From Pseudomonadota bacterium (GTDB taxonomy: Bacteria; Pseudomonadota; Gammaproteobacteria; Steroidobacterales; Woeseiaceae), in the NCBI GenBank assembly GCA_027621915.1, contig JAQCAD010000002.1, forward strand, positions 1 through 64,000: a stretch of 64,000 bases of DNA, given 5' to 3'. Positions 52,842 through 55,814 of this stretch are shown piece by piece. Positions within the stretch are counted from its first letter, which is position 1. Each line of letters opens with the position of its first letter. The notes beneath the pieces are model-generated. The model was not told where the DNA came from. It ran no database searches and saw nothing but the letters and a program-made list of their open reading frames with translations. The position numbers were made by a program, and so were the translations under genes.

Positions 52842-52929
52842 GGTCTGACATTACCTGTTTGTGCAGTCCTCCGATGCTATCAGCAGTTTCTCGCTGTGGC
52901 ATCTGTCAAATCAAGGCGAAGGATAAAAA

Positions 52930-52955
52930 AAGGGCCCGCAGATGCGGGCCCTTCT
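52930..52955 (-). terminator. intrinsic terminator of the HvfA-like operon
   Basis: On the minus strand AAGGGCCCGCA, loop TC, TGCGGGCCCTT followed by a run of T: a very stable stem 20 bases after the HvfA-like stop codon. The opposite strand also has a short T tract, so it may act both ways, but tag reads the same direction and is upstream-insulated by it. Confidence 0.88.
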
Positions 52956-52974
52956 TATTAAAGCAAACTCTAAC

Positions 52975-53346
52975 TTAGGTGGTTTCTTTGTCGCCACCGC
53001 AAGAGCCTTCTGCAGCTTCTTTGTCGCCGCCACAAGAACCTTCAGCGCCTTCTTTAGCTGCGCCTTCCTTGTCACCACCACAGGAACCCTCTGCAGCTTC
53101 TTTATCGCCACCACAAGAACCTTCAGCGCCTGCTTTAGCCGCGCCTTCCTTGTCACCGCCACACTTGCCTTCACCACAGCTGCCTTCCGCTTCCTGTGCG
53201 CCGAGCAGGTAACCTGCGCCCAACGTCGTAATTGCGAACGGGCTTACACCGGTGTCGGCGTTAGCACTTGCAGAAAAAACGAATGCGCCGGCCAATGCTG
53301 CACCAACAGCTACCGCTACGGGCTTTAATACTTGCTTCTCAGACAT
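52975..53346 (-). CDS. HvfA-like Cys-rich low-complexity protein (putative RiPP metallophore precursor)
   Basis: A 123-residue secreted protein. Residues 1-30 (MSEKQVLKPVAVAVGAALAG ... ANA) form a signal peptide, followed by SPFAITTLGAGYLLGA, the hallmark lead-in of HvfA-family peptides. The rest holds six EGxCG motifs (Cys57, 62, 78, 89, 104, 115): one EGKCG and five EGSCG, in Gly/Asp/Lys/Glu/Ala-rich context (CGGDKEGAAK). HvfA peptides have Cys converted by a DUF692 (MNIO) enzyme with its DUF2063 partner to copper-binding oxazolone/thioamide; neither gene is in this window. A strong AGGAG site precedes the ATG. It lies after a sigma/anti-sigma pair. Modification state is inference; unmodified metal binding is the alternative. 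Confidence 0.8.
   Translation of the reverse strand: MSEKQVLKPVAVAVGAALAGAFVFSASANADTGVSPFAITTLGAGYLLGAQEAEGSCGEGKCGGDKEGAAKAGAEGSCGGDKEAAEGSCGGDKEGAAKEGAEGSCGGDKEAAEGSCGGDKETT
52978..53192 (-). repeat. 78-bp tandem duplication inside the HvfA-like gene
   Basis: EGSCGGDKEAAEGSCGGDKE recurs with a 26-residue (78-bp) period, motifs at residues 75, 86 and again 101, 112. The DNA copies differ at a few wobble bases, so the duplication is not brand new but is recent enough to align by eye. Confidence 0.8.
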
Positions 53347-53371
53347 TTCAATCTCCTACCATCGATTTTAA

Positions 53372-53387
53372 ATGCCCAGGTGGGCAT
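53372..53387 (-). promoter_or_regulatory. hairpin between the DUF3379 gene and the HvfA-like gene
   Basis: ATGCCC-(AGGT)-GGGCAT is a perfect 6-bp hairpin; on the minus strand it is followed by TTTAAAA and lies 25 bases before the HvfA-like start codon, outside its AGGAG site. It could be a weak terminator or a processing site setting the ratio of anti-sigma to peptide. Confidence 0.4.
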
Positions 53388-53428
53388 TGGATTAAGCCCT
53401 TTTTAGGGGGCGCATTAGATCAGTGAGC

Positions 53429-54175
53429 CTAGATACTCCACTCCACTGAATCAAGAATTCGTTGTTCGATTTCTCCGAGCGGCTCATCGCGCTCAGCGAT
53501 GATCGCAATACTGCCATTCCCCATCGGAATGATGACGCCATTAACCCCCTTGCCATCGAGCGTTATTGCACCATCGATCATTTCTTCCGGCATCAGGAGC
53601 AACGTAATTGGACCCTTCTCTCCCTGGATAACCAGGTGCGGAATTGTTTTTCCGTTAATGATGCAACTCTGGGCATAGGTAACCAGACCAACATTCCGGT
53701 CCATGGTTCCAACCGACGGATTAACGACACTTAAGAATCGCTCATCGGAGACTGCGACGTTCGTTACTCTGAGGGCGCCCGGTTCGTGATCGACATGTGC
53801 CAGAACCTCTTCTGAAAGCGTCAATCCGTTACCTGGGTCGAAGTCGATCATGCGTACGCCGATGAATGCCGCGAGAACCACCGTAGCGGCAATGCCGATC
53901 CATGCCGGTGCGGAAAATGTCTGCCTGGTTCTGAATGGGAGGCTGGTGACGTTGTCGTCTTCAATTTCCGGCAGCTCTGGAATCCTGAGATCCGGCACAT
54001 CGATTGCGAGCGCTTTCGCAATCTTTGCGTCGAACGCCTGCATCTCTGCCGTAAAAGCCGCACAAGACTCACATGCTGCCAAGTGCAGGTCGCCGCCGTC
54101 GATCGATGCCGACGGGTCTCCTGCCAATGCTTCTTTATAATCTTCGCAGTTCATCATTTTTCCGGAGACCGTCAT
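53429..54175 (-). CDS. DUF3379 family protein (putative zinc anti-sigma factor)
   Basis: A 248-residue bitopic protein. The cytoplasmic N-terminus has an anti-sigma-type zinc motif HLAACESC (His-x3-Cys-x2-Cys, residues about 31-38) preceded by CEDYKEALAGDP, as in DUF3379. One transmembrane helix lies near 88-106 (APAWIGIAATVVLAAFIGV). The periplasmic part (about 107-248) is beta-rich (VTYAQSCIINGKTIPHLVIQGEKGPITLLLMP). It begins in an ATGA overlap with the sigma gene, the arrangement of an anti-sigma partner. It probably releases the sigma factor on an envelope or metal signal; this is inference. Confidence 0.82.
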   Translation of the reverse strand: MTVSGKMMNCEDYKEALAGDPSASIDGGDLHLAACESCAAFTAEMQAFDAKIAKALAIDVPDLRIPELPEIEDDNVTSLPFRTRQTFSAPAWIGIAATVVLAAFIGVRMIDFDPGNGLTLSEEVLAHVDHEPGALRVTNVAVSDERFLSVVNPSVGTMDRNVGLVTYAQSCIINGKTIPHLVIQGEKGPITLLLMPEEMIDGAITLDGKGVNGVIIPMGNGSIAIIAERDEPLGEIEQRILDSVEWSI

Positions 54176-54687
54176 GTCGCTGCCTCCTGCTCCACTTCTT
54201 CCTTCAGTTTGATGCGTGCCCGGTGCAACCGTGTCAGTACGGCCCCTTGCTGCATCCCCATCAGTTCCGCTATTTCCTGGGTGCTGTGGCCCATCAGGAC
54301 CTGGAGCACCAGTGGCTCACGATAATCGTCGTCGAGCCTGTAAATCGCCTGTCGCAGTTCGTCGAGCTCCGAGTCGTCGGTCTCTGCCAGCATCGCCGAC
54401 TGAGCGGGACTCAAAGCGTCGATATCGACAGTTTCCAGCCTTTTCCTCTCGAAATACCTCGCGTTCTCTCTGCGTACAATCGTCAGCAACCACGGCTTGG
54501 CAGCATCGTCGTCGCGCAGCGCATCCAGGGACTTCCACGCCCTAAGAAGCGCCTCCTGGACAACTTCCTCGGCGACGCTCGGGTCGCGGCACAACCACGC
54601 CGCGTACCGGTACATATCCATGTGAAAAACGCTTACAACCCTGTCAAAACGCCTGTGGCGCTTGCGGCCAATATCATTACTGTTCAT
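54172..54687 (-). CDS. RNA polymerase ECF sigma factor (RpoE-like)
   Basis: A 171-residue sigma-70 family protein with region 2 (about 18-90: MYRYAAWLCRDPSVAEEVVQEALLRAWKSLDAL ... PWLLTIVRRENARYFERKR) and region 4 (about 110-165: AIYRLDDDYREPLVLQVLMGHSTQEIAELMGMQQGAVLTRLHRARIKLKEEV). No region 1 or 3, as usual for ECF factors. It heads the three-gene operon with the DUF3379 and HvfA-like genes. The 119-base gap to hemB contains a UUCG-loop hairpin (54701-54714) just above the start codon. Confidence 0.92.
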   Translation of the reverse strand: MNSNDIGRKRHRRFDRVVSVFHMDMYRYAAWLCRDPSVAEEVVQEALLRAWKSLDALRDDDAAKPWLLTIVRRENARYFERKRLETVDIDALSPAQSAMLAETDDSELDELRQAIYRLDDDYREPLVLQVLMGHSTQEIAELMGMQQGAVLTRLHRARIKLKEEVEQEAAT

Positions 54688-54700
54688 ACGAGGTGACCCG

Positions 54701-54714
54701 ATTCCCGAAGGAAT
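54701..54714 (-). promoter_or_regulatory. UUCG-tetraloop hairpin upstream of the sigma gene
   Basis: Read on the minus strand ATTCC-TTCG-GGAAT is a 5-bp stem closed by a C(UUCG)G loop, an extra-stable fold, 13 bases before the start codon at 54687. It could shield or space the ribosome site. Promoter boxes for the sigma operon and for hemB in this gap are not clear. Confidence 0.35.
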
Positions 54715-54797
54715 TATTACCTGTTAATTGTTTTTTTGTGATGCAGGCGTAGAAACCCTACCGAAATACAGGGAAAATCCAAGCTGGGATTATGTAA

Positions 54798-55814
<1,017 letters not shown>

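Follow-up and report, generated by a model that had tools for sequence, protein, structure and literature searches.

Among the closest described systems is oxazolin, encoded by hvfABCX of nontypeable Haemophilus influenzae, in which an HvfA-type precursor with a Sec signal and EGxCG cores is combined with HvfB, HvfC (DUF2063/RRE) and HvfX (DoxX) (PMC13419390). The fontiphorin/captophorin systems (FonABC) similarly pair an MNIO with a PME1 partner and act on EGKCG repeats, forming 5-thiooxazole and tolerating changes at position 3 of the motif (PMC13097082). On the regulatory side, RpoE2 of H. influenzae and SigE of Neisseria are ECF sigma factors with a ZAS anti-sigma peptide, and the regulons they control comprise an operon of four genes with doxX, resembling hvf in gene content, together with periplasmic redox repair genes (PMC7907618), while the bufferin clusters called Buf1 tie an ECF sigma/anti-sigma pair to the precursors of MNIO metallophores (PMC12452194). 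The locus analyzed here, from a marine sediment bacterium, shares features with all of these, and we consider it, with a probability of roughly 0.83, to belong to a split metallophore system of the oxazolin/captophorin (HvfA) type that is coordinated by one ECF sigma factor.

Three genes form an operon on the minus strand of the window, that is, the whole stretch of 64,000 nucleotides that was analyzed. The first encodes an ECF sigma factor of the NF009170/PRK12517 family (54172..54687), matched by PF04542, PF08281 and NF009170, and overlaps by 4 bases the gene of a DUF3379 protein (53429..54175), which is matched by PF11859 and proposed to be a membrane anti-sigma factor. After a gap of 82 bases follows the open reading frame of an hvfA-like precursor of 123 amino acids (52975..53346), and a strong intrinsic terminator with a 13-bp stem, also on the minus strand, closes the operon 3' of it (52927..52956). 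The sigma factor, DUF3379, Cys-rich peptide and terminator thus stand where the preliminary description had placed them, all on one strand. Scanning 84,980 species genomes retrieved 80 loci with DUF3379, from Woeseiaceae and related bacteria, many of them titled Woeseiaceae or Woeseia; the sigma gene lies 5' of DUF3379 in 79 of the 80 loci and a precursor is present in 78. In 75 of the 80 loci hemB and the sigma gene point away from each other, and the AT-rich element TATTTTCCCTGTATTTAGGTAGGGTTTCCACG between the two genes (54720-54806) is strongly conserved across genera.

The precursor is laid out as a Sec-type signal region (assigned by eye), a conserved SPFxxTTLxxGYxLGA segment and then the EGxCG core motifs. 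The window peptide combines a signal-peptide-like start with SPFAITTLGAGYLLGA and exactly five EGSCG motifs plus one EGKCG motif, which confirms in the open reading frame the six motifs and the signal peptide first noticed there. We rejected a chance open reading frame because an equivalent peptide occupies the equivalent position in 78 of the 80 homologous loci. With the HvfA model NF050188 the peptide scores 26.7 bits (E=6e-6), far under the cut-off of 95, and with NF050137 it scores 19.5 bits, exactly the cut-off of that model (19.5); an MNIO-linked, canonical EGSCG precursor (L036) likewise falls under the NF050188 cut-off, with 28.1 bits. As to HvfA membership, the peptide has the Sec signal and the repeated EG[K/x]CG motifs but stays below the NF050188 equivalog cut-off.

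No MNIO or DUF2063 gene was found near the peptide within the window. A search of the genome (3.56 Mb in 101 contigs, 95% complete) for DUF692, DUF2063 and other EGxCG peptides found no EGxCG peptide besides that of the window; it did find exactly one gene for an MNIO and exactly one for a DUF2063 protein, which are neighbours on contig C58 with a DoxX gene behind them. The three products exceed the curated cut-offs of HvfB (406 vs. 360 bits), HvfC (294 vs. 142 bits) and HvfX (232 vs. 80 bits), and the identification of this HvfB equivalog led us to reject the absence of MNIO from the genome. The earlier view of an orphan precursor without MNIO enzymes is accordingly right for the locus and the window but wrong for the genome, where HvfB and HvfC coexist with the precursor, although on separate contigs and not beside it. 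No precursor adjoins hvfB-hvfC-hvfX on contig C58, and one precursor and one enzyme set on separate contigs indicate an unlinked split system. Precursors unlinked to MNIO genes have been reported before (PMC12452194).

The same separation recurs among relatives. In a set of 40, which shares some genomes with the 80-locus set, the EGxCG peptide almost always lies 3' of the DUF3379 gene, the MNIO genes lie a long way off or on a different contig, and no EGxCG precursor adjoins an MNIO gene within the family. In a relative with a finished genome on a single contig (G017), the two operons are found at 0.10 and 2.48 Mb, 2.4 Mb apart. Within at most 10 kb on each side, none of the 80 DUF3379 loci contains an MNIO gene, with a query that recovers 29 of 29 known MNIO loci. 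The lone, precursor-less HvfB/HvfC/HvfX operon and this conserved split strongly support an MNIO acting in trans from elsewhere in the genome, which was one of the two possibilities raised initially. Of 187 gammaproteobacterial genomes, 31 have DUF3379, and in the majority of the 30 loci that were read the same sigma factor is encoded 5' of it. One arrangement places DUF3379-sigma divergent from hvfA (with six EGSCG motifs)-hvfB-hvfC-hvfX in a single locus (L281), and another places sigma-DUF3379 divergent from genes for a DUF2282-like bufferin, an MNIO and a DUF2063-like protein, this locus having been assigned by eye (L279). It follows from these two loci that, outside Woeseiaceae, at least some families have the regulator pair linked to MNIO loci, and the arrangement in Woeseiaceae itself looks like a secondary split.

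The lack of any adjacent precursor and MNIO gene within the family, together with the missed HvfA equivalog cut-off, would also be expected if the peptide remained unmodified, as a Cys-rich metal or redox buffer co-opted by the sigma operon, and the unlinked MNIO served another, undetected precursor. We consider this unlikely, for the genome search produced no second EGxCG precursor, hvfB lacks an adjoining precursor across the family, both operons have a promoter box in common (see below), EGSCG cores adjoin HvfB elsewhere, also together with the same sigma pair (L281), and genomes that possess such precursors without MNIO genes are few, 67 of 2583 (PMC12452194).

With regard to the core motifs, the 78 precursors contain 618 EGxCG motifs, of which 474 are EGSCG and 97 EGKCG; EGSCG is the normal core in the Woeseiaceae-type family, and the idea that it is unique to the window peptide was rejected. 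Outside the family, precursors containing EGSCG directly adjoin MNIO genes (L036, L239, L240 and L241), and these mixed EGSCG/EGKCG precursors stand next to ordinary HvfB-like genes. In the case of FonBC, position 3 of the motif may also be A, R or T, whereas position 5 has to be a small residue (PMC13097082); EGSCG should therefore be accepted. We therefore find it very improbable that EGSCG is a divergent substrate that the MNIO would modify differently from EGKCG, the other possibility raised initially: the Ser at position 3 in five of the six window motifs and in most of the family speaks for it, but the tolerance of FonBC, the status of EGSCG as the family norm and its vicinity to MNIO genes elsewhere (L240, L281) leave that suggestion unsupported. 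The oxazolone/thioamide product assumed at the same time has been superseded, the chemistry having been reassigned to 5-thiooxazole (PMC13097082, PMC13419390). Relatives differ in their motif count, from 2 to 15 EGxCG in one precursor (L159-L238), which suggests rapid gain and loss of repeats.

Upstream of the sigma gene, 7 nt from its ATG, lies an ECF-type promoter box, GTAATAATTCCTTCGGGAATCGGGTC, with GTAATA as -35 and GGTC as -10 element (54695..54720, minus strand). The corresponding pattern GTAATAW-N15-GGTC precedes the sigma gene in 75 of the 77 loci with sequence there, usually at 7 nt from the ATG, and given this short distance from the GGTC -10 element in most loci the sigma mRNA probably has no leader or hardly any (54687-54695). 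This 26-bp pattern recurs, without a change in spacing, before hvfB both in the genome of the window (C58:74529-74554) and in relatives; 24 genomes have it there, including one in which G replaces W (G039). Among DUF3379 genomes with readable hvfB, 22 of 24 have the box there (the exceptions, without the exact box, are G034 and G037), vs. none of four genomes without DUF3379 (G031, G033, G035 and G038), a difference with p=7e-4 in Fisher's test on hand-tallied counts and with kinship ignored. For G033, where pattern matching did not pinpoint the start of the MNIO gene, the 3-kb stretch contains no box; G003 (a near miss) and G009 (box present), incomplete genomes in which DUF3379 was not found, were excluded. 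Across 20 genomes the pattern has 109 matches vs. 32 for the reversed control, and in the window's genome six vs. one, some of the six probably being chance occurrences. Matches inside coding sequence, for example in the rpoE-like gene of L068, were judged not to be promoters.

A common motif of fixed spacing thus precedes both the autoregulated operon and a target operon, as in an ECF regulon, and the promoter box common to the sigma operon and the hvfB locus lends support to the link with the sigma factor that the preliminary description had drawn. Autoregulation predicts a box close to the sigma ATG, as is seen in most loci, and the box at hvfB tracks the presence of DUF3379; both facts argue against sigma/DUF3379 and hvfA being mere neighbours, with hvfB outside sigma control and the box belonging to another regulator. 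That alternative, which we hold to be quite unlikely, draws on the link between box and sigma factor being a sequence match and on the presence of at least one further sigma gene in the genome (RpoE-like, L068).

The box also marks other candidate members of the putative regulon. In 12 genomes, including that of the window (L064), it precedes a gene for an exported AhpC/TSA (peroxiredoxin-like) protein, the start of which most often lies 28-31 nt 3' of the box. Further recurrent families behind boxes are DUF547 proteins (five genomes) and TlpA-like, DoxX, YHS and DUF1223 proteins. One genome (G020) has a box before a BufA2 bufferin gene (128 vs. 60 bits) beside a second MNIO (L106, G020:C1:211900-213566), which suggests that one sigma factor controls two types of metallophore. 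In the window's genome a box is present also before the gene of a DUF6152 secreted protein (L065, G000:C34:83987-84012), and this may be chance.

The DUF3379 protein of the window matches PF11859 with 102.5 bits (cut-off 33.2). Its cytoplasmic N-terminus contains the ZAS-like motif H31-x3-C35-x2-C38, in which H31 is invariant and C35 and C38 are nearly so, and this gives substance to the zinc motif of the initial reading; the gene is co-operonic with the ECF sigma gene in 79 of the 80 loci, as in the ZAS type. A single transmembrane helix (model residues 90-110) separates this part from a C-terminal domain, predicted to be periplasmic, in which H127, C171 and H180 are invariant. These features point to an anti-sigma factor, the outer domain of which would sense metal or oxidation. 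A sequence search of the PDB found no match for DUF3379, and a fold search placed RseB at the top, although weakly (E 0.013, TM 0.27), which is a hint only; the literature searched yielded no mention of DUF3379. We tentatively propose, with the odds somewhat against it, that DUF3379 represents a class of transmembrane anti-sigma factors not described before, which sense metal or oxidation and serve MNIO metallophore loci, and that in Woeseiaceae the matured peptide encoded in the operon, by buffering periplasmic copper, would switch off its own sensor. If true, the homeostatic loop would be closed, and the amounts of enzyme and of substrate would be set independently of each other.

The gap between DUF3379 and the precursor contains two hairpins on the minus strand, AATGCCC-ACCT-GGGCATT immediately 5' of the ribosome-binding site of the precursor (53371..53388) and GCCC-N8-GGGC (53396..53411). 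Many relatives have hairpins of the GCCC...GGGC kind ahead of the ribosome-binding site of hvfA (in the window, 53371-53411), and the presence of a gap hairpin is supported by a direct count, in which a stem of at least 5 occurs in 49 of 78 loci vs. about 20% of shuffles. RNAalifold gave no useful consensus for the gap because loop lengths vary. Matches to Rfam were sub-threshold only. The hairpins possibly act as mRNA stabiliser or processing site, boosting the dose of precursor over that of the sigma factor.

The split system could then operate as follows. The sigma factor, its DUF3379 anti-sigma factor and hvfA would be expressed from one operon, and hvfB, hvfC and hvfX from a separate one, here on another contig. 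A stress in the periplasm, probably from copper, thiol oxidation or both, would act on DUF3379 and free the sigma factor, which would fire the GTAATAW-N15-GGTC boxes before its own operon and hvfBCX; in this way the sigma/anti-sigma pair would co-induce the precursor and the trans-acting HvfBC. HvfBC would convert, in the cytoplasm and prior to Sec export, the cysteines of EGSCG and EGKCG into copper-binding 5-thiooxazoles, and the mature peptide would buffer periplasmic metal alongside the co-induced, exported peroxiredoxin-like protein. Woeseia has been reported as one of the groups that dominate on copper surfaces in seawater (PMC6917582). The predicted regulon of Woeseiaceae is compact, comprising the metallophore, its maturation enzymes and the peroxiredoxin-like protein. 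RiPP mining by cluster seeks precursors adjoining MNIO genes and would thereby overlook the precursor of this whole family; the present analysis provides a concrete predicted enzyme-substrate pair in trans and a candidate role for DUF3379.

In comparison with the known systems, oxazolin is encoded by four genes in one operon and has AEGKCGEGKCG cores (PMC13419390), whereas here the precursor lies on another contig, within a sigma operon, and has EGSCG cores. Fontiphorin and the captophorins derive from a single linked cluster, for which the accessible part of the report describes no DUF3379 sigma module (PMC13097082), whereas the genes are split here. For RpoE2 and SigE the anti-sigma factor is the small peptide HrsE and not DUF3379, the inducer is HOCl and no precursor in the sigma operon is stated (PMC7907618). 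Buf1 has NrsF as anti-sigma factor and a DUF2282 precursor, and the accessible part of that study makes no mention of DUF3379 and presents EGKCG clusters without described sigma genes (PMC12452194). Hence ECF control of a doxX operon (PMC7907618), a sigma/NrsF pair in Buf1 and unlinked precursors (PMC12452194) are known already, whereas the DUF3379 module, a precursor that lies in a sigma operon and has its enzymes encoded in trans, the common box and the predicted regulon are new.
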